Positions 7,940 to 54,488 of a stretch of 64,000 nucleotides of DNA are shown in pieces; within the stretch, counting starts at the first letter, position 1, and each line of letters begins with the position of its first letter. This DNA comes from Prevotella sp. GTDB lineage: Bacteria; Bacteroidota; Bacteroidia; Bacteroidales; Bacteroidaceae. Both the position numbers and the translations under genes were made by a program. The stretch is from NCBI GenBank assembly GCA_017462915.1, contig JAFTQG010000045.1:58767-122766 (forward strand). Reading direction: 5' to 3'. A model generated the notes under the pieces. The model was not told the origin of the DNA. It was given only the letters and a program-made list of their open reading frames with translations, and ran no database searches.

Positions 7940-8012
7940 GGTGACCCTCCGTACTGTGAAGGCTCACCCCTGACACGGCAAAAGGTCACCTTTCACTCGT
8001 TGAGAGGTGACC
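7940..8012 (+). repeat. 22-bp dyad array D1 (GGTSACC x4)
   Basis: Four copies of GGTSACC or a one-base variant are centred at 7943, 7965, 7987 and 8009, that is exactly 22 bp apart, within a unit of the form RGGTSACCTTTNNN...TGAA. The last unit ends CCTTCGG. It lies 48 bp beyond the stop of the minus-strand PiT gene. Confidence 0.85.
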
Positions 8013-8026
8013 TTCGGTTTTGTTGT

Positions 8027-8057
8027 CCGTATCCTGCTGTCTTGCAGTAGGATACGG
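8027..8057. terminator. 3' hairpin after the PiT gene
   Basis: The arms CCGTATCCTGCTG (8027-8039) and CAGTAGGATACGG (8045-8057) pair over 13 bp with one mismatch, three bases from the PiT stop. There is no U run on the minus strand, so an RNA-stabilising or factor-dependent 3' structure is as likely as an intrinsic terminator. Confidence 0.5.
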
Positions 8058-8059
8058 TT

Positions 8060-10300
8060 TTAGTTGTTGAACCTCTTGCTGCTTCGCAGGATACGCCTTG
8101 TAGAGGCGATGAACTCCTGTGTCTCCTGCAGGATATTGAGGTAGAGTATCGTGGTGTTGATGTTCGAGTCATGCTCCTGTAGATAGTCCATCTGACGCTT
8201 TCTCAAGGCGGAGATATGCCTCTTGAACCCCTCCTTCTCGGCGAGGAGACGGTCTATCTCCTCCACATCGTTGCGCTCGATGGCCTCCGTGCCGCGCCTT
8301 ATGAAGTCGAGCACACGCTCCTTCACCGGCTGAAGCTCGGCTATCTGGGAGTTGTTGAGCGGCGTGAAATTGTTGTCGACATGCTCCTTGCACGGCGTTG
8401 CCATGCGCTTCAGGCAGTAGATGATCTGCTCGTCGGCGTTCATGGCGAGATGAAACCATGTGTTCTTCTCGAGCGAGAGGGTCCTGTCTATGCTCCTCAT
8501 GCCCACCAGAAGCCTGTGGCGCGTCTTCTTCCTGCTGTCGTTGTCACGGTCGAGCTGCCTTATCGCCTTGCGGAGCTGTTTCAGATTCTCGTTTATCATG
8601 CCGCTGACGATATTGTCAAAACATGCCCCTGCATGTACCATTGCCTCCGTCTGGACAGCCTGCAGATGGTCTTTGAGCAACGACCAGCGCTCCTCCTTGT
8701 CATGAGTCTGCATGAGCTTGCGCAGGAACAGTCCGCTGTCGGCGCCGCTGTCCTTGCCCTCCTGCGGCATGTTGCTCCTTATGAGCAGCACGACGGCGAG
8801 CACTCCGAAGCCTATCATCGCGGCGATGCCTCCGAAATGCATCACGAGCACCACCGTTCCTGCCGCGAGAAACGCCGCTCCGGCAGTGATGAGCCATCCG
8901 CCGATGACGCTGAGCATTCCCGTGATGCGGAACACCGCGCTCTCACGGCTCCATGCACGGTCGGCGAGGGAGGTGCCCATGGCGACGATGAATGTCACGT
9001 AGGTCGTGGACAAAGGGAGCTTCAGCGATGTGCCCATGATGATGAGCAGGGCGGCGAGGACTATGTTTACCGAGGCGCGCACGAGGTCGAATGCCGCACC
9101 GTCCTCAAGCACCGCGCCCTCCTTGTTGAACCGTCCGTCTATCCATCTCCTCATGCCTGCCGGCACAACTCTCGCGCAGGCGTCGCTGACGGTGTTGAAC
9201 GATCTCACCATGCTGCGCGCCGCGCTCGACGAACCGAACATCTCCTCTCCCTCATCCTGCCTCGAGAGGTCTACGGAGGTCTTCACCACATTGCGCGCTT
9301 TCTTTGATGTCGCGAGGGAGTATATCATGATTGCTCCCGAGGCGAGCAGGAAGACGAACGGCGTATGTGCACTGCCGTTGAGCGAGCCCATCATGAAGGT
9401 GTCCGGGTCTCCGTGGCCGTTGGCGGCGAAGTCGCTGTATGCGCTGTAGCCTGCCAGAGGCACACCGATGAAGTTCACGAGGTCGTTGCTCGCGAAAGCC
9501 ATGGCGAGGGCGAATGTGCCGATGAGGACTATCAGCTTCAGGACATTGCCTCCTGCGGCGTGGAGCGACTGCATGAGCACCGTGAAGAGCACGAATCCGC
9601 CGATGACGATGGCATGGGTGTTGTCGGCTATCCACTGCTTCATGCTGTCGTCCATGAACGCCGCCTGGCCCAGTCCCTTGACGAGGATGAAGTAGCCGAT
9701 GGCTGTGCAGGCCACTCCGCCGAACACTCCGATGAAGTATTTCAGACGCCTGCGGTAGTCGAAGGTGAAGACAAGTCGCGTGAGCCACTGCACCACGGTG
9801 CCGAAGAAGAAGGCTATCGCCACGGAACAGAAGATGCCGAGGATGACCGACAAGGCCTTCTCCGTATTGAGAAGATGTGCGAAGGTCAGCGCGCCCGTGT
9901 CGTCTGCCACGATTTTCAGCAACGCCAGCACGAACGTGCCGCCAAGGAGCTCGAAGACCATCGACACCGTCGTGGATGTCGGCATACCGAGACTGTTGAA
10001 GATGTCGAGCAGTATGACATCGGTGACCATCACTGCAAGGAAGATGCACATAAGGTTCTCGAACGAATACATCTCTGGGCGGAAGATGCCGTGCCTGGCG
10101 ATGTCCATCATGCCGTTGCTGAGAAGGGCTCCCGCAAGCACACCGAGAGATGCCACGATTATCACCGTACGGAACCGCGCCACCTTTGCTCCGATGGCAG
10201 AGTTGAGGAAGTTCACGGCGTCGTTGCTCACGCCCACCATGAGGTCGAATGTCGCGAGGACAAAGAGAGAGACTACAAGTCCTAAGAAAATCATTTCCAT
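8060..10300 (-). CDS. PiT-family inorganic phosphate transporter with PhoU-like tail
   Basis: A 746-residue protein. Two PiT signature segments are visible: VSNDAVNFLNSAIG near residue 24 and ASNDLVNFIGVPLAGYSAY in the middle. Each belongs to one of the duplicated membrane halves, and about 12 hydrophobic segments span residues 1-510. The last 190 residues are soluble, helical and charged (from about 560), like the PhoU-type regulatory tail seen in Bacteroidota PiT proteins. It imports phosphate driven by a cation gradient. It is divergent from a PhoB/PhoR-like pair, and Pho-box-like repeats cover its promoter region. Confidence 0.93.
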   Translation of the reverse strand: MEMIFLGLVVSLFVLATFDLMVGVSNDAVNFLNSAIGAKVARFRTVIIVASLGVLAGALLSNGMMDIARHGIFRPEMYSFENLMCIFLAVMVTDVILLDIFNSLGMPTSTTVSMVFELLGGTFVLALLKIVADDTGALTFAHLLNTEKALSVILGIFCSVAIAFFFGTVVQWLTRLVFTFDYRRRLKYFIGVFGGVACTAIGYFILVKGLGQAAFMDDSMKQWIADNTHAIVIGGFVLFTVLMQSLHAAGGNVLKLIVLIGTFALAMAFASNDLVNFIGVPLAGYSAYSDFAANGHGDPDTFMMGSLNGSAHTPFVFLLASGAIMIYSLATSKKARNVVKTSVDLSRQDEGEEMFGSSSAARSMVRSFNTVSDACARVVPAGMRRWIDGRFNKEGAVLEDGAAFDLVRASVNIVLAALLIIMGTSLKLPLSTTYVTFIVAMGTSLADRAWSRESAVFRITGMLSVIGGWLITAGAAFLAAGTVVLVMHFGGIAAMIGFGVLAVVLLIRSNMPQEGKDSGADSGLFLRKLMQTHDKEERWSLLKDHLQAVQTEAMVHAGACFDNIVSGMINENLKQLRKAIRQLDRDNDSRKKTRHRLLVGMRSIDRTLSLEKNTWFHLAMNADEQIIYCLKRMATPCKEHVDNNFTPLNNSQIAELQPVKERVLDFIRRGTEAIERNDVEEIDRLLAEKEGFKRHISALRKRQMDYLQEHDSNINTTILYLNILQETQEFIASTRRILRSSKRFNN

Positions 10301-10323
10301 ATTGTTGTGTTTTTTTCCCGTTG

Positions 10324-10331
10324 CAAAATTA
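10324..10331 (-). promoter_or_regulatory. PiT promoter -7 element (TAATTTTG)
   Basis: TAATTTTG on the minus strand fits TAnnTTTG and lies 24 bp before the PiT start codon. No good TTTG element is found at the usual distance. The 11-bp repeats (10341-10373) occupy that position, as expected for an activator-dependent promoter. Confidence 0.55.
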
Positions 10332-10340
10332 CTCTGCTGT

Positions 10341-10373
10341 TGTTACGAAACTGTTACAATAGTGCTACAATAC
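10341..10373. promoter_or_regulatory. Pho-box-like triple 11-bp direct repeat
   Basis: Three consecutive 11-bp units, TGTTACGAAAC, TGTTACAATAG and TGCTACAATAC, lie head to tail. PhoB-type regulators bind 11-bp direct repeats with a conserved TGT-A/C core followed by an AT-rich spacer. The block replaces the -33 region of the PiT promoter. The binding protein is inferred to be the adjacent response regulator. Confidence 0.65.
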
Positions 10374-10410
10374 GGTGAATACGGCGCCCGGAAGCCGCAA
10401 CTTATGCAAA

Positions 10411-10427
10411 TGTAACGTAAATGTAAT
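10411..10427. promoter_or_regulatory. Second Pho-box-like pair
   Basis: TGTAAC at 10411 and TGTAAT at 10422 are again 11 bp apart. They lie about 12 bp upstream of the -33 element of the response-regulator promoter, which suggests autoregulation of the two-component genes. Confidence 0.45.
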
Positions 10428-10438
10428 GTCCGGAACGC

Positions 10439-10467
10439 TTGTTTTCGTGAAAAACGATGTAAATTTG
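10439..10467 (+). promoter_or_regulatory. Promoter of the two-component operon
   Basis: TTG at 10439-10441, 18 bp, then TAAATTTG at 10460-10467, followed by CACC. This fits the Bacteroidota housekeeping promoter and lies 23 bp before the response-regulator start. Confidence 0.6.
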
Positions 10468-10490
10468 CACCGTGTAAAAAACATGAATGT

Positions 10491-11186
10491 ATGATGAAAC
10501 GTAGAATACTTGTTGTCGATGATGAGGAGGATCTGAGAGAGATTCTCAAGTTCAACCTCGAGAAGGAAGGGTATGAAGTGGACACCGCGGCCTCTTCGGA
10601 GGAGGCTCTCGACCTTGACCTCGCCTCGTACGACATCATGCTGCTTGACATCATGATGGGCGAAATCAGCGGCATGGCTCTTGCAGCCATGCTGAAACGC
10701 CGCAAGGAGACGGCTTCCGTACCTATTATATTCATAACGGCGAAGGACACGGAGGACGACACCGTGAAGGGTCTCTCGCTGGGAGCCGACGACTATATCA
10801 CCAAGCCTTTCAAGATAAGGGAGGTAGTGGCGCGTGTGGAGGCGGTGCTGCGCCGTGCCGGAAATGCTGCCGTCGCGCGCCGTGAAGGTATGACGGGGAC
10901 GGTCGTCTTTGAAGGTCTCTGCATAGACACCGCCGCCAAGCGCGTCACCGTTGACGGCGCTGATGTGGCGCTGACGAAGAAGGAGTTCGAGATACTCCTG
11001 CTCCTTGCCGGCAACGCCGGAAGGGTATTCTCGCGTCAGGACATACTCTCACGCGTATGGGATGACGACGTTTATGTGCTCGACCGTACGGTGGACGTCA
11101 ACATAACGCGTCTGAGAAAGAAGATAGGACATTATGGCGACCGTATCCGAACACGTCAGGGATACGGATATTCGTTTGACAAATGA
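10491..11186 (+). CDS. PhoB-like OmpR-family response regulator
   Basis: A 231-residue DNA-binding response regulator. The receiver domain has the acidic pair Asp10-Asp11, phospho-acceptor Asp53 in LLDIMMG, and Lys106 in DYITKPF. A winged-helix OmpR/PhoB output domain spans about residues 130-230 (LTKKEFEILLLL, RTVDVNITRLRKKIG). Its stop overlaps the kinase start. The neighbouring phosphate transporter and the 11-bp repeats between them argue for a PhoB role. RprY, a Bacteroides OmpR-type regulator, is the main alternative name. Confidence 0.88.
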   Translation: MMKRRILVVDDEEDLREILKFNLEKEGYEVDTAASSEEALDLDLASYDIMLLDIMMGEISGMALAAMLKRRKETASVPIIFITAKDTEDDTVKGLSLGADDYITKPFKIREVVARVEAVLRRAGNAAVARREGMTGTVVFEGLCIDTAAKRVTVDGADVALTKKEFEILLLLAGNAGRVFSRQDILSRVWDDDVYVLDRTVDVNITRLRKKIGHYGDRIRTRQGYGYSFDK

Positions 11187-12625
11187 CGGGAAGGAGGAAG
11201 ACAATGAAACATACAACATCACTCAGCCGCCAGCTTTTCATCACCGTGCTCATGCTGTTCTCGGTGTTTGTGGCGGGATTCGTATCTTATCAGTACCAGA
11301 GGGAGAAGCAGTTCAAGATCGGACTGCTGCACACTCGCCTGAAGGACTACAACCATCAGCTGGCAGAAAGCATCGCCGACATGGGAGGCCTGAAGGACTC
11401 TGTGCTCACGGCATACGTCGGGAACCATCCTCTGCGCGGACTGCGCATCACGCTGCTCGATATCCGTGGCAAGGTCTTGTACGACAACGGACAGCATCCT
11501 TACTCTTCCATGGCAAACCATCTGGAGCGTCCAGAGGTAAAGAGGGCTCTCATCTCGGGCGAGGGTTTTGAGATAAACCGCCACTCGGACACCATGAACG
11601 AGAACTATTTCTATGCCGCGACATACTTTCCGCGGCAGGGCATCATCGTGAGGACGGCGTTGCCTTACGACTTCGAGCTGGAGGAATATCTGCGCGCCGA
11701 TATGACATCAATCTGCATGACGCTTGTCGCGAGCATCTTCATCATGGCGGTCTTCTGGCTGTATACGCGCCGTCTGGGCAAGTCGATAGCACAGCTGAGG
11801 CGGTTCGCGACGCTTGCCGGCAGCGGCGAGAGCTACGATGCGGAGCGTGAGGCGGCGGCTTTCCCTGACACGGAACTGGGGGAGATATCGCAGAATATCG
11901 TTCTTCTGTACAAGCGTCTGCAGGAGAGCCAGGAGGACAAGCTGCGCCTGAAACGCCAGTTGACGCAGAATATCTCGCACGAACTGAATACTCCGGTGGC
12001 GAGCATCCACGGCTATCTGGAGACTATCCTCAACAATCCGGACATCACGGAGGAGCAGCGCGACAATTTCCTCAGGCGTTGCTACGCGCAGAGCGAGAGG
12101 CTGGCGCAGCTCGTGCAGGACATATCGTCGCTGAACCGTATGGATGAGGTGCTCCATTCGCTGAACATGCAGGTGACGGACATTGCCGCGATAGTCCACG
12201 ATATACAGCAGGAGGTGGCGCTGCAGCTGGCGGAACACCACATGACAATCACGAATACGCTCGGCAGCACGCTGCCTATCATGGGTGATGCGTCGATGAT
12301 TTATTCCATCTTCCGCAACCTTATAGACAATGCCATAGCCTATTCGGGCGAGGGAACGGCCATCGTCATCCGCTGCGTGGAGGACAAGGACTGGTATCAT
12401 TTCCGGCTTTCTGACAACGGTACGGGCATCCCTGAGGAGCATATACCGCATATCTTCGAGCGTTTCTACAGAGTAGACAAGGGACGCCGAAGGACGTTCG
12501 GCGGCACGGGTCTCGGACTTGCGATAGTCAAGAATGCCGTGATGCTTCACGGAGGCAATATCACCGCAAGCGCAATGCCTGGCGGAGGCGTGGAGTTCGC
12601 GTTCAGTCTGAAGCGGAGAGCGTAG
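11183..12625 (+). CDS. PhoR-like sensor histidine kinase
   Basis: A 480-residue inner-membrane kinase. Transmembrane segments at about 17-36 and 175-195 enclose a 140-residue periplasmic sensor region. A HAMP-like linker follows, then the HisKA box with phospho-accepting His266 in SHELNTP. The ATPase domain shows an N box (RNLIDNAIAYS), DNGTGIP and GGTGLGLAIVK. The start overlaps the regulator stop (ATGA). A second Met seven codons in (11204) is an equally good start. It ends at a strong intrinsic terminator. The partner is the preceding response regulator. The phosphate signal is inferred from context. Confidence 0.88.
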   Translation: MTGRRKTMKHTTSLSRQLFITVLMLFSVFVAGFVSYQYQREKQFKIGLLHTRLKDYNHQLAESIADMGGLKDSVLTAYVGNHPLRGLRITLLDIRGKVLYDNGQHPYSSMANHLERPEVKRALISGEGFEINRHSDTMNENYFYAATYFPRQGIIVRTALPYDFELEEYLRADMTSICMTLVASIFIMAVFWLYTRRLGKSIAQLRRFATLAGSGESYDAEREAAAFPDTELGEISQNIVLLYKRLQESQEDKLRLKRQLTQNISHELNTPVASIHGYLETILNNPDITEEQRDNFLRRCYAQSERLAQLVQDISSLNRMDEVLHSLNMQVTDIAAIVHDIQQEVALQLAEHHMTITNTLGSTLPIMGDASMIYSIFRNLIDNAIAYSGEGTAIVIRCVEDKDWYHFRLSDNGTGIPEEHIPHIFERFYRVDKGRRRTFGGTGLGLAIVKNAVMLHGGNITASAMPGGGVEFAFSLKRRA

Positions 12626-12668
12626 GCGTTTGTTTGCCTGAAAAGCGGCAGGCATATATTAAAGAAAC

Positions 12669-12703
12669 GAGGGAAAAACGGACGGTGAGCCTGTTTTTCC
12701 CTC
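12669..12703 (+). terminator. Intrinsic terminator of the two-component operon
   Basis: GAGGGAAAAAC (12669-12679) pairs perfectly with GTTTTTCCCTC (12693-12703) and a T-rich tract follows, 44 bp after the kinase stop. Confidence 0.8.
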
Positions 12704-12768
12704 ATGTTTTTTATGGTTTTGTATTGTATTTCCTGTGTCGTTGTCTTGTTTCTCGTATGTTCCTGTAA

Positions 12769-12817
12769 GTTATCGTTAAGGTTATCGTTAGGGTCATAGT
12801 TAGGGTTATCGTTATGG
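12769..12817 (+). repeat. 12-bp GTTATCGTTARG tandem repeat
   Basis: Units start at 12769, 12781, 12793 and 12805, exactly 12 bp apart, just past the 3' end of the HAD gene. Related TTAGGGTTAAGG sequence occurs near 25810-25860 and 32101-32127. Confidence 0.75.
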
Positions 12818-12820
12818 TTC

Positions 12821-13408
12821 TTATTTTATCAGATGTCCCTCATCTGCAAATTCCAGCAGTTCCTTGTCACCGCGCGAGTCGCCGAAGGCGGTGATATAGT
12901 GCTCGTTCCTGTGCTCATGGAGGTCAGGATACTCCTGTTTCAGGCGACAGACCTTCTCAGGTCCGTAGCAGTTCGGTGACAGGAAACGGCCTGTGAACCC
13001 ATTTTCCCGGAACTCCATCTTCGTGCCGAGCACCTTGAATTCCGGCACAAGACGGCTCACCCAGTTCTCCGGACTTGCCGTGACGACCACCACCTCATTG
13101 CCTTTCTCCTTCTCTTCCTTCAGTCTGAGGTAAAGGTCAGTGCGGAGAATATGCCTGTGTGCGTCGGCAAAGCGTTGGCAGAAGCTGTCGAACTCCTCCT
13201 TGCTCATCCTGCCGAAGCAGTGGTGCAGCAGCCGCTCCTTTGTCCTTTGGTTGGAATAAAGGCGAGCCATCATCAGCGCGAGCCACGGCATTATGCGCAG
13301 CAAGGCAAGGGCGAGGCCGAGCTTTCCGCGCTGGAAGATGATGATGGACATCATCGAATCGACGGTCGTCAGTGTGCCGTCAAAGTCTGAAACGAATAGC
13401 TTTTTCAA
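12821..13408 (-). CDS. HAD-IB family phosphatase
   Basis: A 195-residue haloacid-dehalogenase-superfamily enzyme of the SerB-like IB subgroup. Motif I is DFDGTL (nucleophile Asp8, acid Asp10), motif II is VVVTAS, the motif III Lys lies in GPEKVCRLK, and motif IV is FGDSRGDKELL. The helical cap lies between motifs I and II. It follows a UbiA-type transferase on the same strand. Such phosphatases often stand next to or are fused with polyprenyl-phosphate transferases, so its substrate may be a phosphorylated prenol-sugar, but this is inference. Confidence 0.85.
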   Translation of the reverse strand: MKKLFVSDFDGTLTTVDSMMSIIIFQRGKLGLALALLRIMPWLALMMARLYSNQRTKERLLHHCFGRMSKEEFDSFCQRFADAHRHILRTDLYLRLKEEKEKGNEVVVVTASPENWVSRLVPEFKVLGTKMEFRENGFTGRFLSPNCYGPEKVCRLKQEYPDLHEHRNEHYITAFGDSRGDKELLEFADEGHLIK

Positions 13409-13511
13409 GTCTGTAGGATGTTATTTCGTGGTCTGCGATGTTGGTTCTTGTGGTCTGCGAAGCTCTTTCGCATAGCTTGCGCCGTCTTTTTATGCCGTCA
13501 GCAATGTTGTT

Positions 13512-14402: not shown

Positions 14403-14499
14403 GTGATGTCTGTTTTTTCAGTGTGTATCAATATGCTTCCCGATATTTATCGGATGTCTTCTCGATATTTGTCGGTCTGCTGTCTGCATGTCAGGGCTT

Positions 14500-16742: not shown

Positions 16743-16855
16743 TGTTGCGGTTTTTGCGGTTATGCGGTTATTACACGGTTATACGGATGTCTCACGGTTA
16801 TGCGGTGATTGGTTTTGGGGTGATAGCCGGAATAGCCGATATAGCCGGAATAGGG
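16743..16855. repeat. Nonamer plus octamer leader (acyltransferase 2)
   Basis: Read on the minus strand, GGCTATNNC nonamers (16822-16855) are followed by AACCGYAN octamers (16743-16808) and then the ATG at 16742. This is one of the clearest examples of the two-part leader. Confidence 0.8.
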
Positions 16856-16870
16856 GTTATATGGTAAAGG

Positions 16871-19409: not shown

Positions 19410-19518
19410 CCTGTATGTCGGTCGGTTGTGGGTCGTGGGTTGTGTGGTTATGGGTTTTTGGTTTTAGGTTGTGGGTGATAGCCGGAATAGCCGATATAGC
19501 CGTGATAGTCGATATAGC
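19410..19518. repeat. Nonamer plus AACC-rich leader upstream of nadD
   Basis: Minus-strand order: GGCTATNNC nonamers (19477-19518), then CAACCCACGACC-type units running into the nadD coding region. The second block resembles the leader of gmk (20283-20325). Confidence 0.75.
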
Positions 19519-19580
19519 AAATAACCAAACGACTAAACAACCAACTAACCAAACGACTAAACAGCTAAACCACCAGACAG
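19519..19580. repeat. AACCAAACGACTAAAC octamer block
   Basis: About seven degenerate 8-bp units of the CCAAACAA/CTAAACGA family, between the nadD leader and dyad array D2. Confidence 0.75.
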
Positions 19581-19585
19581 CCAAC

Positions 19586-19680
19586 GGTGACCTTTCATGC
19601 GACGGAGGGTCACCTTTTGCCATGTCAAGTGTAACCCTTTACGAGGTGAAGTGTCACCTTTTGTGAGGCTTTTTGTAACC
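19586..19680 (+). repeat. 22-bp dyad array D2 (five units)
   Basis: GGTGACC, GGTCACC, TGTAACC, TGTCACC and TGTAACC are centred at 19589, 19611, 19633, 19655 and 19677, exactly 22 bp apart. It lies 25 bp beyond the gmk stop on the minus strand. Confidence 0.85.
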
Positions 19681-24533: not shown

Positions 24534-24652
24534 CTATTCCAGCTATATCGGCTATTCCGGCTATCACCGTAAAACCGTATAATATCCGTAAAACTGCACA
24601 ACCGTGTAATATCCGCACAACCGTAAAACCGTAAAAAACCGCACAACCGTAA
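24534..24652. repeat. Nonamer plus octamer leader upstream of dxr
   Basis: Plus-strand order: CTATTCCAG/CTATATCGG/CTATTCCGG nonamers (24534-24565), then AACCGTNN/AACCGCAC octamers up to the dxr ATG at 24653. It is inverted relative to the minus-strand loci, so orientation follows the gene. Confidence 0.85.
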
Positions 24653-25801
24653 ATGAAAAAGCAAATATGCATACTCGGCTCTACAGGCTCCATCGGCACA
24701 CAGGCACTGGAAGTCATAGAAGAGCATAGCGACCTCTATGAGGTATACTGCCTCACGGCATACAGGCATGTGGAGATGCTTGCCGAGCAGGCACGCAAGT
24801 TCAAGCCTGCGGCAGTGGTCATTGCCGACGAGAACCTTCACGAAAAGCTGTGCTCTCTGCTCAGCGACTGCCCTGATATCAAGGTGTATGCCGGTGCGGA
24901 GGCTCTGGAGGAGATTGTCGAGGCGGAACCGATAGACATGGTGCTCACTGCCATGGTGGGCTTCGCCGGCCTTAAACCGACAATCCGCGCGATAAAGGCG
25001 CATAAGAAGATATGCCTTGCAAACAAGGAGACTCTTGTCGTTGCTGGCGAACTTATCATGAGACTGGCGCAGGAAAACCATAGCCCGATACTCCCTGTAG
25101 ACTCTGAACACTCGGCGATATTCCAAAGCCTTGTGGGCGATGCCGACTCGCAGGTTGAGAAGATTCTCCTCACGGCGTCGGGCGGACCGTTCAGAAATCA
25201 TACTCTTGAGGAGATGAGAACCGTCACTGCCGCCGATGCACTGAAGCATCCGACATGGGACATGGGAGCGAAAATCACCATCGATTCGGCTTCCATGATG
25301 AACAAGGGCTTCGAGGTTATAGAGGCAAGATGGCTCTTCGGCGTGGACGCTGACAGAATCCAGGTGCTTGTGCATCCGCAGTCAATAGTACACTCTGCCG
25401 TGCAATATACCGACGGTTGCGTCAAGGCACAGCTCGGTGTGCCCGACATGCGCCTGCCGATACAGTATGCATTCTCCTTCCCTCAGCGCCTTCATCTTTC
25501 AGGAGAGAGGCTTGATTTGTTCAAGCAGCCGCTGGAATTCTTCGAGCCGGACATGGAGAAATTCCGTTGTCTCGCCATGGCTTATGAGTCTTTGCGCAAG
25601 GGAGGCAACATGTCGTGCATAGTGAACGCCGCCAACGAAGTCGTCAACGAGGCTTTCCGAAAGGACAAGTGCGGATTCCTGCAGATGGGGGACATCATCG
25701 CCGAGACGATGCAGCGTGCGACATTCGTCAAGAGTCCGTCACTCGACGACTATCTGATGTCTGACGCTGAGGCACGCCGCATAGCAGCATCACTGCTGTG
25801 A
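24653..25801 (+). CDS. dxr: 1-deoxy-D-xylulose-5-phosphate reductoisomerase
   Basis: A 382-residue enzyme of the MEP isoprenoid pathway that makes 2-C-methyl-D-erythritol 4-phosphate. The NADPH-binding loop GSTGSIG is at residues 9-15. LANKETLVVAG, PVDSEHSAIFQ and the flexible lid region ending in TASGGPFR match the family, and the metal-binding Asp and Glu residues are in DSEHSA and around NAANEVVN. Its product feeds undecaprenyl phosphate synthesis by the uppS gene at 40.6 kb. Confidence 0.97.
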   Translation: MKKQICILGSTGSIGTQALEVIEEHSDLYEVYCLTAYRHVEMLAEQARKFKPAAVVIADENLHEKLCSLLSDCPDIKVYAGAEALEEIVEAEPIDMVLTAMVGFAGLKPTIRAIKAHKKICLANKETLVVAGELIMRLAQENHSPILPVDSEHSAIFQSLVGDADSQVEKILLTASGGPFRNHTLEEMRTVTAADALKHPTWDMGAKITIDSASMMNKGFEVIEARWLFGVDADRIQVLVHPQSIVHSAVQYTDGCVKAQLGVPDMRLPIQYAFSFPQRLHLSGERLDLFKQPLEFFEPDMEKFRCLAMAYESLRKGGNMSCIVNAANEVVNEAFRKDKCGFLQMGDIIAETMQRATFVKSPSLDDYLMSDAEARRIAASLL

Positions 25802-34321: not shown

Positions 34322-34696
34322 GGGAGTCTTTTCGCTTTTATCGTGTTTGTTGTGAAAGGATTTCCGCAGGGTGGAGGAGGCAGGGGATGATGCCTTGCCC
34401 GGGCAAGGGTGTCGTTTTGCCTGATATGCGTCAGGCTGGATAAAGCTGTCGTTTATTGTTCGTATAAACGCTTGTCACACAACCGTTTGTTGAGGGTCAC
34501 CTTTCGCATGGTGAAAGGTGACGTTTTTCACGCTGAGGGGTGACCTTCTGTCCGATGGAAGGTGACCTTCGGAAAAGCGGGGCGTGACGATGTGATGTTT
34601 ATATGTGACGGTGTGATATATATCCGGTATTTATGCAGGATATATATGATGTCTGTGCAAAATATATACAGTGACTGTGCGATATATATATTGTGG
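34322..34696. other. 375-bp gap between HlyIII and murI
   Basis: Contains a 16-bp perfect palindrome CCTTGCCCGGGCAAGG (34393-34408), a small GCCTGA/TCAGGC hairpin (34419-34436), the dyad array D3, and AT-rich ATATATA-type sequence (34600-34696) next to the murI stop. No gene was seen. Confidence 0.65.
34473..34567 (+). repeat. 22-bp dyad array D3 (four units plus one degenerate)
   Basis: GGTCACC, GGTGACG, GGTGACC and GGTGACC are centred at 34498, 34520, 34542 and 34564, with a degenerate TGTCACA one unit earlier (34476). The spacing is exactly 22 bp. It lies 3' of murI (minus strand). Confidence 0.85.
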
Positions 34697-35545
34697 CTAT
34701 GCGAGGTCTATATGCTCCACCTCGATGTTGTGATGGAGGAAAATCTTTGCGCATTCCTGGAATCTTTCGGGATTCTCTGTAGTGAGGTAGCGTGTGTTTC
34801 CGCCCTTTGAACAACGGCTGTCCATATCGGGATGGCGGCGGAAATAGTCGGCGAGGCTGTCGACGATGATGTCGCCCTGCGGTATGATATTGATACCTTC
34901 AGGCACGGCTTTCATGAGGGAGCGCATGAGCAGGGGATAGTGTGTGCAGCCGAGGAGTATGGTGTCTATCTCGGGATCTTTTGTGAGCAGCTGTGTGATG
35001 CGCTTCTTCACGAAGAAGTCTGCGCCGTCGCTGTCTGCCTCGTTGGCCTCGACGATGGCTGCCCAGAGGGGACATGCCTGGCCTGTGACCTTGACATCCG
35101 GGAAGAACTTCGCCATCTCCAGTTCGTAGCTGTCTGAGCGTACCGTGCCTTCTGTGGCGACATATCCTATATGGCGCGACACGGTGATGTTGCCGACATG
35201 CTCCACCGTAGGGCGTATGACGCCGAGCACACGGCGATGGCCTTGGGGCTCGCCGGGAGCGTGGTGTGTGAGATTGTAGGTTATGAGGTCGTTCTGCTGT
35301 ATGGTGCGGAGAGCCTTGGCAGAGGCGGTATTGCATCCGAGGATGACGAGTTGGCATCCGAGATCGAAGAGTTTCAGCACGGCCTGCCGTGTGAATTCGT
35401 AGACGACATCAAAAGAGCGCGAGCCGTATGGGGCACGCGCGTTGTCGCCGAGATAGAGGTAGTCGTACTGTGGCAGACGCTCCTGGAGTTTCTGCAAGAT
35501 GGTAAGTCCTCCGTAACCTGAATCGAAAATTCCTATTGGACTCAT
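34697..35545 (-). CDS. murI: Glutamate racemase
   Basis: A 282-residue enzyme supplying D-glutamate for peptidoglycan. Catalytic Cys71 lies in GCNTAS and Cys200 in LLGCTHYPLL. Asp8 in IFDSGYGG and the GDNARAPYG segment are also conserved. It is the last gene of the uppS-bamA-ompH block, an order widespread in Bacteroidales. A 3' dyad array (D3) follows. Confidence 0.96.
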   Translation of the reverse strand: MSPIGIFDSGYGGLTILQKLQERLPQYDYLYLGDNARAPYGSRSFDVVYEFTRQAVLKLFDLGCQLVILGCNTASAKALRTIQQNDLITYNLTHHAPGEPQGHRRVLGVIRPTVEHVGNITVSRHIGYVATEGTVRSDSYELEMAKFFPDVKVTGQACPLWAAIVEANEADSDGADFFVKKRITQLLTKDPEIDTILLGCTHYPLLMRSLMKAVPEGINIIPQGDIIVDSLADYFRRHPDMDSRCSKGGNTRYLTTENPERFQECAKIFLHHNIEVEHIDLA

Positions 35546-44415: not shown

Positions 44416-44474
44416 GCTTTATTGCCGGTGCTGTGAGGGTGTAGGCGGCCGATGTGTGGAGATGCTTTGCAGAG

Positions 44475-44547
44475 GGTGACCTTTTGCCTTGTGGAGGGTC
44501 ATCTTTTGCATGATGAAAGGTTATCTTTTGCATGGTGAAGTGTCACC
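44475..44547 (+). repeat. 22-bp dyad array D4 (four units)
   Basis: GGTGACC, GGTCATC, GGTTATC and TGTCACC are centred at 44478, 44500, 44522 and 44544. The spacer is nearly constant (CTTTTGCATGRTGAA). It lies 3' of pckA (minus strand). Confidence 0.85.
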
Positions 44548-44639
44548 TTTTTCTTGTGCCCGTTTGACGCTGTCGTGAGGGCGCTGTCGCGGTTGTAGGG
44601 CTTTGCTGCCGGGCGGTTGTGTAGCGAGGCTGTTTTTCT

Positions 44640-44727
44640 GCTGTGTATGGCGTGTCTTTTGGCTGTGTATGGCGTGTCTTTCGGCTGTGTGGAATGTTTC
44701 TTTCGATTGTGTGGGATATGTCTTTCG
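44640..44727 (+). repeat. 22-bp tandem repeat GCTGTGTATGGCGTGTCTTTTG
   Basis: Four adjacent units start at 44640, 44662, 44684 and 44706, each 22 bp. The first two differ at one base and the last two at several. It is unrelated in sequence to GGTSACC but has the same period. Confidence 0.85.
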
Positions 44728-44767
44728 GATTGTCTGCGGGCATCCTGCTTTGTGTGAACGGTGGCAA

Positions 44768-47394: not shown

Positions 47395-47626
47395 CTCTTT
47401 TTGCCGTTGCGGACGCTGTGGCGCCTTTTTTCTCAATGCGGAAGATAGCTGAAAGCAAGTATGCGCAAATGCTTATTTTGCTACACGGAAGGCGCAAGGA
47501 CACATGTTCGGCAACACGAATGGTGTTGACCTGAAAGATAATGCCAGAGCGTATTTGCACGGCGTACTGCATAACTATATATGGAAAACATATAGAGAGA
47601 ATAAAAGATGATGGGAGAGTAAAATT

Positions 47627-47698
47627 ATGATGTTGATCTGCATTATCATTTGGATTATCGGCATGTTCCTGTCGCAGATAACAGGACATGACAAATAA
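47627..47698 (+). CDS. Possible 23-residue membrane microprotein
   Basis: The frame MMLICIIIWIIGMFLSQI... is one hydrophobic helix with a short polar tail ending HDK. A GGGAGAG purine run lies 6 bp before the ATG. It has no recognised relatives and could be chance. A 35-residue polar frame (47504-47611) precedes it. Confidence 0.25.
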   Translation: MMLICIIIWIIGMFLSQITGHDK

Positions 47699-47788
47699 GT
47701 GAGTAAAACAATGAGGACTCACTCCAATAAACATGCTTAACCCCTCCCATATTTATCGGGTGAGCCAGTATATGATGCAGGGGAATGA

Positions 47789-47824
47789 AAAGAGGTTGCA
47801 TGGTGATTCCCATACAACCTCTTT
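47789..47824 (-). terminator. Hairpin after the SusD-locus lipoprotein
   Basis: AAAGAGGTTG (47789-47798) pairs with CAACCTCTTT (47815-47824), with an inner ATGG/CCAT. The T run on the minus strand is short (CTTTTC), so it is only a moderate terminator. Confidence 0.5.
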
Positions 47825-47933
47825 GTTGTGTATTCATGTATCTTCTATGTCTAAGTGCCTGTACCTTTTATATTATACAGATGTGTTATGCAGGTACAGC
47901 CTTTTTGTCATGAAGGCTCATTTTTTCTGTGGA

Positions 47934-48545: not shown

Positions 48546-48568
48546 TGCTGTATTGCTTTTTTATGATA

Positions 48569-50710
48569 TTAATAGCCGTAGGAGTTCTCGAGGTTGCCGT
48601 TTGATGCGGAAACAGTGATTGCTCCGATAGGCATGATATAGCGGTTTCTTACAGTAGTGTTGGTCTGTGTGTTGAAAAGCTTCCAGTTATGTGGCTTTTC
48701 CGCTGCCTCGGCGATGTCGCTCCAAGGATTCAGACCGTCACATATTGACGGCATGTTCGTTGCCTTGTTTGCTTCAGACGAAGCATTGTCACCGTGTGCG
48801 AACCATTTCTGTGTCATGCAGTCTTTCTTTGTAGCAGGCTTGGAATCTCCAGGATATGTAGGCCAGTTGGCACCCCAGCAGAATGTCTCAGGGTCTGCCT
48901 GAAGAAGTTCTATACCGTTAGGCATGGTAACAGTCTTGAAGCGGTAGTAGAAGTTACGTGGATATCCGCCTCTTGACGGCTGCTGGAATACACCTTCTAT
49001 ATAGTTCTTCTTTGCCTCGACAATCTTGTGTGACAACTGTCCCCAGCGGATGAGTTCCCACTTGCGGATGCCTTCGCCTGCAAACTCCCATGCGTTCTCG
49101 GCATAGATGGCTTCCATGAATCCTTTCTTCTGGATGTGCTCTTCTTTAAGCCACTGTTTGCCTGCTTCCTTGTTTTCAGGAGCGTAGGCACGGCTGTGAA
49201 CCTCCAGAAGCGCTTCTTCTGCTGTAGGTGCTCCGTCTACTTTGTAACCGGCACCGCCGAGGAGGTAGCAAGCCTCTGCATAGTTGAGCAGTATCTGCGA
49301 GTAGCGCATGCGTACGACATTGATACCTGTGCACCACTTTGCGTCACCGGCATTCTGTGCGACACTTGTCAGAGCAGATGTCCACCATTCTGGGTTCCAC
49401 TTTCCGCAGTAGAAGGCGAATGGGCCTTTACTTGTATTGTCCTCGTAGAAGAGGAGTTCAGGATGCTCCACATCATAGTATTTGAATTTTGTCGCCTCCT
49501 TATACTGGAAGAGTGTCAGTGTTACATCACGGCGTGTATCGAGAGGCTTGTAGCTTTCTGCAACGATTTCAGCGTTTCTGCCGTTTACAACACGTCCTGT
49601 GCTGTGATATGTCTGCCAGAGCTCGCCGGTGAGCTTGAGCTTGCCGGATGAGTTGCCCTTTGTGCCGAAATATCTTGTAGAACCGTTGATACGCTTTCCT
49701 ACAGTGTATCCGAGTTCACCAGTCACGCCCATGCCGTTAGGAATCTCGAAGATATTCTCCTGATAAGTCTGGTCAAGTTTCAGCTGGTTGATCATCTTCC
49801 ACTCGTCCTCGAACGAAGGATTGAGCTGATGACGTCCGGACTTGATTACTTCTGCGGCAGCCTCTGCGGCGGTCTTGTATAGTTCCATACGTTTTGCCTC
49901 GTCAGGACGCTGTGTAGGATATGTAGCGTCGCAGTATGACTTCAGAGGCTCTCCCTCTGTGTCGCCGAGGTTCTCGTAACCGGCCTTTGCTTCCTCTCTG
50001 ATGGAGTATCCTGCGCGTGTCAGTGCTGTCTGTGCGAGGAGACCGTAAGCGTAGCCTTTTGTTACATGCTCGGTTGTCACGCCTTCACCTGCCCATGGGA
50101 GATAGTGTACAGCTTCCTGAAGATCCTTTATGCAGGCGTCCTGGATTACATCGCGGTCGGTCTTTCCCTCATAGTTTGAATCCATGTTTCCATCTGTGCG
50201 GAAAGGAACATCGCCCCACATTCTCGTAAGGTCGAGATATGCCATGGCGCGTATGGTCAGAGCCTCGCCGAGGAAACGCTTCATCTTTGCCTGATCCTCG
50301 GCAGAACCGTTTTCTGTAGAACCGCTTTCCCTTATGCTCTTGATAGCGATGTTACAGTAGTTAATCATCGAATAGATATTGTTCCAGGAAGAGTTGAGCG
50401 TTGTCCATGCAGTGCTGTAGTTGTAGTTCATGTTGCCGCGCTCACTGGTGGTGTTGAGCGACTCTGTTCCCAGGCCGTCAATCAGCTCGTAGTCGGTACC
50501 TGTTCCGAAGAGGATAGGTATCTGCTGGCCGTATGTAGCGTCGGTCATCATGCCGTATATCTTGTTGATGCCCAGTTCTGCTGCCTCTGGAGAAGACCAC
50601 ATCTCTTCCGGACGGAGGTCGGACGGAGGTCTCTGGTCCAGGAAGTCGGAACATGCGGCCAAGCCAAGCACACCAGCGGCAAATATTGCTGTCTTGAATA
50701 TATTTTTCAT
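48569..50710 (-). CDS. SusD/RagB family outer-membrane lipoprotein
   Basis: A 713-residue surface lipoprotein (lipobox LAAC, Cys20 at CSDFLDQRPPSDL). Tetratricopeptide-like helical N-terminal part and the conserved RAMAYLDLTRMWGDVPF segment are typical of SusD. It pairs with the SusC protein upstream to bind and hand over a glycan or other polymer. It is at the long end of the family. The substrate cannot be deduced. Confidence 0.93.
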   Translation of the reverse strand: MKNIFKTAIFAAGVLGLAACSDFLDQRPPSDLRPEEMWSSPEAAELGINKIYGMMTDATYGQQIPILFGTGTDYELIDGLGTESLNTTSERGNMNYNYSTAWTTLNSSWNNIYSMINYCNIAIKSIRESGSTENGSAEDQAKMKRFLGEALTIRAMAYLDLTRMWGDVPFRTDGNMDSNYEGKTDRDVIQDACIKDLQEAVHYLPWAGEGVTTEHVTKGYAYGLLAQTALTRAGYSIREEAKAGYENLGDTEGEPLKSYCDATYPTQRPDEAKRMELYKTAAEAAAEVIKSGRHQLNPSFEDEWKMINQLKLDQTYQENIFEIPNGMGVTGELGYTVGKRINGSTRYFGTKGNSSGKLKLTGELWQTYHSTGRVVNGRNAEIVAESYKPLDTRRDVTLTLFQYKEATKFKYYDVEHPELLFYEDNTSKGPFAFYCGKWNPEWWTSALTSVAQNAGDAKWCTGINVVRMRYSQILLNYAEACYLLGGAGYKVDGAPTAEEALLEVHSRAYAPENKEAGKQWLKEEHIQKKGFMEAIYAENAWEFAGEGIRKWELIRWGQLSHKIVEAKKNYIEGVFQQPSRGGYPRNFYYRFKTVTMPNGIELLQADPETFCWGANWPTYPGDSKPATKKDCMTQKWFAHGDNASSEANKATNMPSICDGLNPWSDIAEAAEKPHNWKLFNTQTNTTVRNRYIMPIGAITVSASNGNLENSYGY

Positions 50711-50752
50711 TGTAGTTGCCTTTATATGTTTTTGTTTCTTATTCAGAGTATG

Positions 50753-53700
50753 TTAGAATGAGAGGTTTACACCGAACATGTATGTGCGGCTCTTAGGATA
50801 TGATGCATAGTCTACACCAGGGCACATTGCGTTTCTCTTTGAAGAGACGTCGACCTCAGGGTCATTGCCGGAGTAGTTTGTCCAGCAGAAGAGGTTAGAG
50901 CCTGTGAAGTATACGCGGAGACCCTTGCAAGAGAACTTCTTGAGGAGCTTCTTAGGCAGGGAGTATCCTATTGTAATCTGCTGCAGGCGGAGGAACGATG
51001 CGTCCTCTACAGCGTAGTCTGTGAGACGCATGGCTGTTGCTGCTGCAGGATTCCATATATTTGCATTTGCATTGATCTCGTTAAGACGGTCGCCGAGCTT
51101 GTCACCAGGGAAAGCCTCCTGTGTCGATGAAGAAGGACGTCCGAGGTTCATGCCAGTCTCTGGGTCGAGCCATGTATAGCGGTTGTCTATTGCGAAGTCG
51201 CCGTTGAGGTTATACTCCTTTGCTGAGCCTGAGTAGTATGACAGGGCGAGCTTTGTGCCGTTGACAATCTTGTTGCCGATAGAGTAGTTGAAGAATACGT
51301 TGAAGTCGAAGTTGCCGAGCACTGTACCGTTGATGCCGAAGCCACCAGCTACAGGAGCGACAGTGTTGCCGAGTCTCTGCTTGATGGCGTCGCCGTTCTC
51401 GTCAGTCTGCACCTTAGGGGCACCAGGATAGAGGTTTCCGCCGAAGAGTTTGTAGCTTTGGTCTGTTCCCGCTGCGCCCGGGTCGGCTGTAATAGGCTTG
51501 CCCTTTTCATCCACACCTACGACAGGAAGCCATTTGCCGTTGTTGAAGTAAAGGTCGCCGTCAGGATTGTTCTGTGTCCAGCAAGTGTAGTATCCGTTCA
51601 TCTTGTAGCCCCACAGCTCGCCGAGCTTGCCGCCTTCCACGACGCTGTAGTCCTCATACTGTGCCAGTCCGCCCCAGTTGGATGACTGCCATTCAGCACC
51701 TGTCGCGAGCTTGTCGATCTTGTTCTGGTTGTATGCGATGTTGCCCATGAAGTTGAGGGAGAAGTTCTTTGTGTCCACGAGGACAGCGTTGAACTGGAGC
51801 TCGATACCCTTGTTGGATGTCTGTCCGAAGTTCTGGTACTGTGTGGTGTAACCGTTGTCTCCAGGAATCTCAGCCCTCATGAGGAGGTCCTTTGTAGTGT
51901 TCCAGTAGAGGTCAACGCTACCGGAGAGACGTCCCTTCCAGAATCCGAAGTCGATACCGAAGTTACGTGTGATGGTAGTCTCCCACTTCAGGTTCTCGTT
52001 GATTTTTGTGCTTTGAATCTCCATCATGTCTGTGCGGTTGTCCGTTCCGTTCTGGCTAAACCAAGGGAACTTCGCGCCGGAGTCAGCTGGAGAATACAGA
52101 AGCTGTGTCATCTGAGGTATGCGGTTGTTGCCGGCTGTACCGAAAGAGAGACGTGTCTTGAGGTTGGAAACCCACTTGGAGTCCTTGAGCCAAGCCTCGT
52201 CAGACAGACGCCATGCGATGGCTGCGGAAGGGAAGAAGCCCCACTTGTTGCCCTTGCCGAACTTGCTGGAGCCATCGGCACGCATTGTCACTGTAGCGAG
52301 ATATTTCTCGTTGAGTGTATAGTTGATACGTCCGAAGAACGATACCATGTTGTCCTTCGCGCCCTTTGTGGCGAGGTGGTTGTAGAGAGTTCCGGCATAG
52401 CGGTTGTCCTTGATGGCGTCGACACCCATGTCGTTGTTGTAAGCCACGAATACATCGTTGATGTCTTCTTCCTGAGAGCTCTTTGTCTCCTGACCGATCA
52501 TGACGTTGATGTTGTCGTGTCCTCCGCGGAATTTGCGGTCTTCGAAGGTGATGGTGTTGGAGTTTGACCATGACCATGTGTCGGCAGTCTCGAAGTATGC
52601 CTGTGGCTGTCCGTTGCTTCCGTACTTGGAGTTTGTCACGGCGTCAGCGAGCCATACCTGCTCTGTGTCGTTCTTCTTCTTGCCATACTGGAACTGTGTG
52701 CGGAAAGTCCATTTCTTGAAAGGACGCCACTGCACGGCAGCGCTGTATGTCTGGTTGAAGGTCTTCTTGAGTTTGTCGGTAGATGTGATACGCTCGTACG
52801 GAGTCTTGCGGATAGAGCCGGCAGACTCGAGCTCCTCGTCGTCAGTAACGACGTTGAGAGGGTTGACCGGGCGGAAGCGTGCGGCGTTTGCCACGATGGA
52901 GTTTGCCGCATTAGACTCGTTGGTGTCTGCGCCACCGCTGAGGCCGTCGAGGTTGGAGTGTGCAAGACGTGCGTTGAGGTCGATGGTGATCCATTTGTTC
53001 ATCTTGTACTTCAACTTCGCGTTGAGGTTGTTCTTCACGTATCCGGAGCCATACATGATGCTGTTCTCGCGGTTGTGTGCGTAAGCCACGTTGAACTGCA
53101 GTGCCTTTGTGCCGCCTGTGACGTTCACGTTGTACATCTGCTGGTTGCCTGTGCGTCCGAATATCTGGTCCTGGAAGTCGCTTCCTTCCCTTGATTTCCA
53201 TACCTCGATGTCCTCGTATGAGCCGTAGTTGGATACGTATCCCTTGCTCTGTGAGCCGGATGCGAGCTCATACTGGTACATGGCGTAGTTGTATGGGTCG
53301 AGCACTTCTGTAAGTTTTGTAGCCTTCTTCCATCCCCAGCTTGCGCCGAAGTCGATGGCTACCTTTCCTTCCTTGCCGCTCTTTGTGGTGACGATGATGA
53401 CTCCGTTGGCACCCTTTGCACCGTAGATGGCTGTTGATGAAGCGTCTTTCAGCACGTCGATAGACTCGATTTCAGACGGTGCGATGTCGCTGATGGACGA
53501 CACCTCGAAGCCGTCGACGATGTACAGCGGCGAGTTGTCCTGTGAGAGCGAGCCGCCGCCACGTACGCGGATCTTGATGTCGGCGTCAGGAGAGCCTTCT
53601 GTAGTGGTGATGTTGACACCGGCCATCTTACCTGTCAGCGCCTCCGAGGCACTTGTCACAGGGAGGTCCTTCAGCTGTTTCGAGCTGACGTTTGCCACAG

Positions 53701-54064
53701 CACCTGTAAGGTCTTTCTTGCGTACTGTACCATAACCGATGACGACGACGTCATTGAGAGTAGTGTTGTCATCCTGCATGGTGACATTGATAGGCCCGTC
53801 GCCTGTGACCTTCACCTCCTTGTCCTTCATGCCGATGTATGAGAACACTAGAGTCTTGCCTTTTGCGACTTTGATTGTGAAATTACCGTCCATATCGGTG
53901 ATGGTACCGTTCTTGGTACCTTTCTCCATGACGGTGGCACCGATGACTCCCTCACCAGTGGCGTCTTTCACGTTACCTGTAACGGTTTGCGCCTGAATGG
54001 CCGTTGCTATCATCGCAAGAAACGAGACAAGCGCGATTCGAAAGGATTTCAAATTTACAGTCAT
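50753..54064 (-). CDS. SusC/RagA family TonB-linked outer-membrane protein
   Basis: A 1103-residue TonB-dependent importer with a signal peptide (residues 1-25) and an N-terminal carboxypeptidase-D-like regulatory domain (about 27-105: TGNVKDATGEGVIGATV). A TonB-box-like TLNDVVVIGYGT leads into the plug domain (to about 230), and a 22-strand barrel ends YMFGVNLSF. It is 43 bp upstream of SusD in the same direction. No regulator or sensor of the HTCS type is nearby. Confidence 0.95.
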   Translation of the reverse strand: MTVNLKSFRIALVSFLAMIATAIQAQTVTGNVKDATGEGVIGATVMEKGTKNGTITDMDGNFTIKVAKGKTLVFSYIGMKDKEVKVTGDGPINVTMQDDNTTLNDVVVIGYGTVRKKDLTGAVANVSSKQLKDLPVTSASEALTGKMAGVNITTTEGSPDADIKIRVRGGGSLSQDNSPLYIVDGFEVSSISDIAPSEIESIDVLKDASSTAIYGAKGANGVIIVTTKSGKEGKVAIDFGASWGWKKATKLTEVLDPYNYAMYQYELASGSQSKGYVSNYGSYEDIEVWKSREGSDFQDQIFGRTGNQQMYNVNVTGGTKALQFNVAYAHNRENSIMYGSGYVKNNLNAKLKYKMNKWITIDLNARLAHSNLDGLSGGADTNESNAANSIVANAARFRPVNPLNVVTDDEELESAGSIRKTPYERITSTDKLKKTFNQTYSAAVQWRPFKKWTFRTQFQYGKKKNDTEQVWLADAVTNSKYGSNGQPQAYFETADTWSWSNSNTITFEDRKFRGGHDNINVMIGQETKSSQEEDINDVFVAYNNDMGVDAIKDNRYAGTLYNHLATKGAKDNMVSFFGRINYTLNEKYLATVTMRADGSSKFGKGNKWGFFPSAAIAWRLSDEAWLKDSKWVSNLKTRLSFGTAGNNRIPQMTQLLYSPADSGAKFPWFSQNGTDNRTDMMEIQSTKINENLKWETTITRNFGIDFGFWKGRLSGSVDLYWNTTKDLLMRAEIPGDNGYTTQYQNFGQTSNKGIELQFNAVLVDTKNFSLNFMGNIAYNQNKIDKLATGAEWQSSNWGGLAQYEDYSVVEGGKLGELWGYKMNGYYTCWTQNNPDGDLYFNNGKWLPVVGVDEKGKPITADPGAAGTDQSYKLFGGNLYPGAPKVQTDENGDAIKQRLGNTVAPVAGGFGINGTVLGNFDFNVFFNYSIGNKIVNGTKLALSYYSGSAKEYNLNGDFAIDNRYTWLDPETGMNLGRPSSSTQEAFPGDKLGDRLNEINANANIWNPAAATAMRLTDYAVEDASFLRLQQITIGYSLPKKLLKKFSCKGLRVYFTGSNLFCWTNYSGNDPEVDVSSKRNAMCPGVDYASYPKSRTYMFGVNLSF

Positions 54065-54148
54065 TGATTGAAATTGATTGAATAATGTTAGTTTTTTTAT
54101 TTATGTTTTTCTCTTAGACTATATAGTTGAAGCTATAAAAATCCGCAA

Positions 54149-54156
54149 CAAAGTTA
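54149..54156 (-). promoter_or_regulatory. susC promoter -7 element (TAACTTTG)
   Basis: TAACTTTG on the minus strand lies 85 bp before the susC start. The upstream stretch is T-rich (TTTTCATAAAAATG). Confidence 0.55.
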
Positions 54157-54415
54157 ATACATTTTTATGAAAATATGTTATTTTGTCAAAAGTGATGATG
54201 GTTAAAAATAGTTAATCCGTACAAAATCGCCCATATTGCGGTATTTTGTATACAGAAAAAAGTAATTTTCGCAACATCTTCCCCATGCCTTATAATATGG
54301 TATTTTCTACACGTCTTGACATTTGCTCGCCGTCGTTGCCGATTTGACCTGTGTCATTTCTCTCCGCCGTCCGTGTCGCTTCTCCCGGTGAGGATAAAAG
54401 GACAGCGTGGCGGAG

Positions 54416-54488
54416 GGTGACCTTTTACCGTGCAAAGGGTCACCTTTCGCCACGCTATCCGTCACCCTTTGTATAGTGAAAGGTGACC
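54416..54488 (+). repeat. 22-bp dyad array D5 (four units)
   Basis: GGTGACC, GGTCACC, CGTCACC and GGTGACC are centred at 54419, 54441, 54463 and 54485. Exact 22-bp spacing. It lies 3' of the MATE gene (minus strand). Confidence 0.85.

Follow-up and report, generated by a model that had tools for sequence, protein, structure and literature searches.

The closest described counterpart that we found to the repeats reported here is PINSR, a 188-bp intergenic repeat of the Prevotella intermedia/nigrescens group that occurs in 177-184 copies, is absent from most strain-specific regions and has a function given as unknown (PMC4755523). The passages of that paper dealing with the repeat name P. intermedia, P. 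nigrescens, P. falsenii and P. disiens as positive, P. corporis having been tested and not listed as positive (PMC4755523). Here we describe arrays of short palindromes in a 64,000-nt window (the whole stretch of DNA analysed) of Prevotella sp. contig JAFTQG010000045.1, which carries five of them, D1-D5, and in the genome to which it belongs (G000, 2.93 Mb in 59 contigs). The PINSR passages mention no 22-bp units, palindromic units or even spacing, whereas the arrays have all three, and PINSR is limited there to four species, whereas arrays occur in the home genome, its sister G076, P. corporis and the congeners G016, G010, G046 and G138; this is a comparison of text descriptions and not of consensus sequences. 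The initial annotation of the window was aware of no Bacteroidota repeat of this form in the literature, and our searches of the open-access literature likewise showed no description of such arrays. The even layout of the arrays, with letters that vary between species, suggests what would be an undescribed chromosome-organising system.

The annotation placed five arrays in the window at an exact centre spacing of 22 bp, and all five were found where it had put them, with the spacing exact. Allowing at most one mismatch to GGTSACC (S, G or C), the window contains 11 pairs of cores at 22 bp and 9 at the harmonic of 44 bp, with at most one pair at any other distance up to 60 bp. Across the genome there are 127 exact GGTSACC-N15-GGTSACC pairs and two of the reversed pattern, while any spacer of 2-32 bp yields 129 pairs in a non-overlapping count. 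Chains of at least three cores (at most one mismatch) were sought in a 462,766-bp sample made up of the window and contiguous stretches of contigs known to bear GGTSACC pairs; lag 22 gave 21 of them, and the remaining lags between 14 and 33 gave none. An array that is truncated where contig C24 begins has one 21-bp step.

A larger sample of 787,410 bp (the earlier stretches, the window and a second set picked around known arrays) gave 53 arrays in a first count, 37 with four units, seven with two, seven with three and two with five. When scored as four units, 54 arrays exceeded 40, one more at 15-20 being left out of the 54, and four-unit scoring of the same sample at spacings of 19-21 and 23-25 gave no score above 15. 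The unit is a 19-bp palindrome, GYRAAAGGTSACCTTTYRC, carrying about 21 bits and followed by three free bases, which makes exactly 22 bp. In the 37 four-unit arrays, units 1-4 average +20 to +21, the would-be units 0 and 5 average -26 and -27, and conservation extends into the outer arms of units 1 and 4. The unit is therefore centred on GGTSACC and arrays have sharp ends; we regard this structure as solidly established. In the window, the units of D1-D5 score +10 to +27 against the genome profile, and the would-be units on either side of each array reach -3.6 at most. Four or five units per array had been reported; there are four in all five arrays, and D2 and D3 have no fifth, their corrected four-unit frames being 19586-19658 and 34495-34567. 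The shared orientation also reported for the arrays has little meaning because the unit is palindromic, and the sole asymmetry that we noticed is that the central S is mostly G in unit 1 (37/54) and C in unit 2 (33/54). Outside arrays, no lone unit rose above the level of a reversed-genome control (maximum 15.5), apart from one match in a coding region that scores 19.4. We thus found no sign of autoregulation through a single site, since the only lone match above control lies within a coding region.

The even spacing of the arrays along the chromosome and their four-unit number are the two features that the initial annotation did not contain. On six contigs of the home genome (515 kb, 35 arrays), the 29 gaps between neighbouring arrays average 13.9 kb with a coefficient of variation (CV) of 0.36 and range from 7,548 bp to 31.9 kb. 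When arrays were placed at random in intergenic stretches of 120 bp or more, the CV averaged 0.96 and no minimum gap exceeded 2,097 bp; 0 of 5000 runs matched the observed gaps. Extrapolated from these 35 arrays in 515 kb, the home genome would hold about 200. The 11 gaps measured in G076 run from 7.9 to 16.0 kb. In P. corporis DSM 18810 (G327) the 12 gaps lie between 4.2 and 9.1 kb (minimum 4,179 bp; mean 6.4 kb; CV 0.26), again with 0 of 5000 null runs; its stretches were picked around known pairs, which affects the presence of arrays and not the gaps to other arrays. The third lineage, G016, has a complete 3.17-Mb chromosome with one GGTSACC pair, yet 22 bp is its strongest repeat lag, and an unforced profile yields a different palindrome, GYAAWNTGMNKCANWTTRC, with a symmetry axis of 0.28 vs at most 0.10 at other axes. 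This profile finds 45 arrays in 480 kb, each scoring at least 46 (one rounds to 46), with no score above 20 at lags 18-21 and 23-26; among the matches listed, it is spread over the entire chromosome. Of the 44 gaps in G016, one is shorter than 4.9 kb, as against a null mean of 16.5 such gaps and a null minimum of 7 (5000 runs). The CV over all G016 gaps is 0.62; with the two gaps above 20 kb dropped, a post hoc choice, the mean is 8.9 kb and the CV 0.30.

We propose, at about even odds (a probability of roughly 0.5), that the arrays are anchors at which four dimers of a putative DNA-binding protein assemble and organise the chromosome. Each array would be a binding platform for a sequence-specific dimeric protein: a 19-bp palindrome would bind a single dimer or two of them, and the four sites, at intervals of two helical turns, would build an assembly of fixed size on about 85 bp of DNA. 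The symmetric and independent positions of the unit fit a dimeric DNA-binding protein, and the conservation peaks near +/-2.5 and +/-8.5 would leave room for two dimers on each palindrome as well. Some 200 such platforms at roughly equal distances could then serve as chromosome-organising anchors, for example as loop bases or as boundaries of supercoil domains; the system would have been kept in several Prevotella species, the recognised sequence drifting with the protein. The protein, its dimeric form and its role are what we infer from the four-unit arrays of the home genome, a palindromic profile in which paired positions do not covary, sites held by purifying selection and even spacing in three lineages. 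In addition, gene orientation has no clear bearing on where the arrays lie, and G016 lacks them in a Mu-like prophage stretch, a second stretch of the same gene layout and an AT-rich island.

These array-free stretches of G016 also bear on a different explanation, in which the arrays would label the chromosome as self to a system of repair, replication or defence that needs a mark for each length of DNA. Mu-like portal and DUF3164 matches lie in the gap at 117-160 kb, whose pattern of gene lengths is nearly repeated in the first 33 kb, itself free of arrays, and the gap at 70-97 kb is AT-rich and includes a type I restriction gene (eight proteins were tested, three having no match). Even spacing and the presence of Mu-like or restriction genes in the two gaps above 20 kb speak for self marks. 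No linked system is known, however, and Chi and similar marks are single oriented motifs, whereas the arrays are symmetric and have four sites, so we consider this explanation improbable.

The history of the sites was followed in the sister genome G076 (metagenome-assembled genome (MAG) of Prevotella sp. SC0317_S2_2), whose aligned stretches are mostly 90-96% identical to the home genome and whose sequence was partly chosen because it holds arrays; it has 109 exact GGTSACC pairs. Twelve home arrays could be aligned on both flanks, and the array is kept in 12/12 (four one-flank cases were not counted). These include the five of the window, most of which is covered by the 61.5-kb G076 contig C20, selected for one of its arrays, with five arrays at the five places. 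In the 12 orthologous arrays, changes affect 7/282 core positions (2.5%), 28/282 inner-arm positions (9.9%), 53/279 outer-arm positions (19%) and 9/47 central S positions (19%). By comparison, 24/105 free bases (23%) have changed, as have 255/1065 positions in the 60-bp flanks (24%), the latter a figure that is probably too high, since it includes poorly aligned low-complexity DNA, and for which the free bases are the fairer comparison. Because the core has changed by 2.5% against 23-24% in free bases and flanks, the array sites are under purifying selection. Traces of copying were also sought: the most similar pair among the 54 arrays shares 21 of 31 free positions, where 30 column shuffles give 21-24, and two units of one array agree no better than two taken from different arrays (3.41 vs 3.50 of 9). 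Recent copying or slippage is thus unlikely, as neither array pairs nor units are more alike than chance; ancient copying is compatible with these data.

Slippage would make the arrays neutral tandem repeats. One array does have five units in the home genome and four in G076, a clean 22-bp step, and there are unrelated tandem repeats nearby as well as 22-bp runs lacking the core beside D3 and D4. Nevertheless, most arrays have four units, the units of one array do not resemble each other more than those of others, and core sites are conserved, which leaves this explanation hardly credible. The main rival is a dispersed non-autonomous mobile element whose transposase binds the four 22-bp sites and whose copies are spaced by target immunity, a property of Tn7 and Mu. 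Tn7 has 22-bp sites and a four-site end, the gaps between arrays have a hard lower and a softer upper limit, and spacing and motif differ by species as a new invasion would have it. On the other hand, nothing is conserved outside the arms of units 1 and 4, copying from array to array leaves no trace, all 12 sites aligned on two flanks are kept in G076, the sites are under purifying selection, and they are palindromic, whereas MuA and TnsB sites are directional. We therefore judge a mobile element to be unlikely.

Gene context was examined with greedy open reading frame (ORF) calls of at least 100 aa. Every array of the window lies beyond the 3' end of a gene on the minus strand (PHO4/PiT, guanylate kinase, Asp/Glu racemase, PEPCK and MatE for D1 to D5), as the initial annotation had stated, but elsewhere the mix of orientations is close to that of all gaps. 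Of 43 arrays with clear neighbours, 25 lie in tandem, 11 in divergent and 7 in convergent gaps, where all gaps of 150 bp or more divide as 127:55:49; eight further arrays overlap a called ORF and two have no neighbour. The G016 arrays (31 tandem, 5 divergent, 9 convergent vs 70:26:19) are somewhat few in divergent gaps. There is accordingly no clear link between arrays and either promoters or 3' ends; 3'-end enrichment over the intergenic background is absent genome-wide, and a 3'-end rule is rejected on this context. Of the outcomes that the annotation had named as refuting, spacing scattered around 22 bp did not occur, whereas a lack of preferred position relative to genes did. Operators of a global transcription regulator would also be palindromic and intergenic, and some arrays do lie upstream of genes. 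Arrays are, though, roughly as frequent in convergent and tandem gaps as expected, no lone operators occur and chromosome-wide even spacing would be left unexplained, making operators quite improbable.

RNA hairpins between neighbouring units, acting as terminators or mRNA stabilisers at 3' ends, had been offered beside protein sites phased on the DNA. Neighbouring units are able to pair, some perfectly, and five of five window arrays follow a gene. However, in 124 spacers and 184 units no covariation was detected between bases that face each other over the spacer or the core, there is no 3'-end preference genome-wide, and the window gives no Rfam match at gathering score. Since the paired positions do not covary, hairpins are very improbable, and of the two proposals it is the phased protein sites that gain support, from the symmetric profile of about 21 bits with independent positions.

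The arrays of the window and two adjoining features are given in Table 1. Runs of 22-bp period without the core stand directly next to arrays in G138 as well (L338, 3683-3790 and 13693-13780), and these, like the runs beside D3 and D4, may be decayed or derived arrays. Several intergenic regions of the window are also occupied by short tandem runs with periods of 8 bp (ACCGTATA, CAACCAAA) and 9 bp (ATAGCCGGA), at 5436-5623, 7835-7926, 16823-16861, 19478-19581, 24566-24653 and 54539-54597, some of which adjoin arrays.

Table 1. Arrays D1-D5 and adjoining 22-bp runs (positions in the 64,000-nt window; a strand of "." denotes no strand)
Feature	Position	Strand	Description	Relation
Array D1	7934..8018	.	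four 19-bp palindromes; cores 7940, 7962, 7984, 8006	orthologous array in sister G076
Array D2	19580..19664	.	four units; cores 19586, 19608, 19630, 19652	orthologue in G076
Array D3	34489..34573	.	four units; cores 34495, 34517, 34539, 34561	orthologue in G076
Array D4	44469..44553	.	four units; cores 44475, 44497, 44519, 44541	orthologue in G076
Array D5	54410..54494	.	four units; cores 54416, 54438, 54460, 54482	orthologue in G076
Tandem run of 22-bp period without GGTSACC core	34634..34704	.		adjoins D3
Tandem run of 22-bp period without GGTSACC core	44631..44733	.		adjoins D4

We found clear arrays in six of nine congeners (G076, G327, G016, G046, G010 and G138). P. corporis has 18 arrays in 119.6 kb; 12 have four units scoring at least 8, and the remaining six have three good units and one that is weak or missing. 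In G016 there are four units in 25 arrays, five in 15, three in two, six in two and seven in one. Motifs read by eye, all of 19+3 bp, are GTAAAAGRTNAYCTTTTRC in G010, ATTGCAGGTSACCTGCAAT in G046 and GCRTTTTCTTAGCTTTYGC in G138, the last with less symmetric arms. Arrays of three to five GTCGAGGGTSACCCTCGAC units were also read by eye in uncultured Bacteroides MAGs. Seven other families of the same order were sampled (14-60 kb each), and in six of them the count at lag 22 was zero; the AT-rich G029 gave 51 at lag 22 vs a median over lags of 31, with one intergenic 22-bp run of GTAAC-like units. Of the 398 genomes of the genus, 4, the home genome among them, have exact GGTSACC triples, and the G016 model matches at least 8 of 90 genomes, with at least 52 matches in G016, at least 33 in G190, at least 5 in G163 and at least 1-2 in five others. 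The motifs are thus lineage-specific. Between P. corporis and the home genome there were eight alignments, from three of seven query stretches, with no array noticed at a matching spot, an outcome that carries no weight either way because gene order is not kept.

P. corporis also has a dispersed repeat of about 190 bp (L204 10413-10619 and 19612-19817; L207 7005-7184; L205 1671-1840), three copies of which lie within some 40-80 bp of arrays and which has no Rfam match at gathering score. It is possibly related to PINSR, and its proximity to arrays hints at a link. Outside the phylum, GGTSACC runs in 22-bp tandem were observed at several loci of a Verrucomicrobiaceae MAG and of Nocardioides acrostichi (L038, L063, L022, L050). 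The non-Bacteroidota matches listed look like ordinary tandem repeats or plasmid iterons, and GGTSACC arrays as a cross-phylum element were rejected; by eye, no transposase was recognised in the ORF lists of three such loci.

A wider form of the anchor proposal, which we put forward tentatively and at somewhat below even odds, is that Prevotella and perhaps some relatives possess a chromosome ruler, in which hundreds of four-site arrays at nearly equal distances would divide the chromosome into domains of about 6-14 kb. With similar reserve, each array might load a fixed complex of four dimers, the motif changing between species and the geometry (19+3 bp, about four units and even spacing) being kept. 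Such turnover at constant geometry would require one protein and hundreds of its sites in each genome to have changed in step.

Several families were considered as the source of that protein. The recognition helix of two AsnC proteins, of interest for the sites of Lrp/AsnC octamers, is the same in G000 and G016 despite the different motif. The TetR comparison, made with SlmA-like sites in mind, comprised two groups: the first has GKGRRTLYTYF in all four species compared, and the second (GISKRTLYEIY, or RISKRTVYEIY in P. corporis) is nearly unchanged across motifs. AsnC, TetR and GntR proteins are accordingly not supported as the binder. A GntR helix is unchanged between the home genome and P. 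corporis, the only pair compared, a weak test as both share the core motif. A small XRE group is not supported as the binder; five of 39 XRE matches were examined, of which three are alike and are presumably antitoxins. Most genomes have one strong ParB, with extra ParB_N matches in contig C58 of G000 and in G003. The ParB helix reads GKKRATVANF in G000 (L297) and G076 (L296), GKSRTAITNY in G016 (L295) and GKKRATISNY in G029, from another family; the home clade differs at some positions from the other Prevotella read, G016 included, though this stays inside the variation among families that showed no arrays.

Besides the probably inflated flank figure noted above, four points weigh against the arrays as chromosome anchors. 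The number of units is less fixed outside the home genome, with four in 25/45 G016 and 12/18 P. corporis arrays. No 22-bp arrays were seen in the congeners G004 and G040 (20 kb each), and those of G003 are doubtful. Even spacing with a lower bound could also arise from target immunity. Finally, a cognate protein was sought and not found among AsnC, TetR, GntR and some XRE proteins, and ParB is no more than a candidate.

Domain boundaries in bacteria usually go with transcription or emerge only from contact maps, and we know of no bacterium with evenly spaced domain anchors defined by sequence. If the arrays are such anchors, sequence alone shows where they lie in several species, and what sets a supercoil domain of roughly 10 kb becomes testable. 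The turnover of the motif would in turn be a remarkable example of a protein changing in concert with hundreds of its sites.

Known systems share single features with the arrays. CRISPR loci combine identical repeats with unique spacers of similar length, whereas the arrays consist of variable 19-bp palindromes separated by 3-bp gaps. Plasmid iterons can also show GGTGACC repeats at 22 bp, as in L053, but there they form one cluster of near-identical units on a small contig, whereas the arrays are chromosome-wide. L053 is a 3,973-base contig filed under Streptomyces, has 37% G+C, ends in the GGTGACC repeats and has ORFs that look Rep- and mobilisation-like by eye; it is a plasmid and probably a contamination. 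REP and BIME elements are likewise numerous clustered intergenic palindromes, from which the arrays differ in showing no hairpin covariation, mostly four units, no traces of copying and even spacing. The ends of Tn7 and Mu resemble the arrays in their tandem 22-bp sites, and target immunity would space copies, whereas the arrays show no element between ends, are palindromic and not directional, and hold positions in common with a sister species. The sites of MatP, SlmA, Noc and ParB are similar in being palindromic chromosomal protein sites for organisation or segregation. Those sites, however, are single, short and conserved within large groups, whereas the arrays mostly join four sites at 22 bp, are evenly spaced and vary from species to species.

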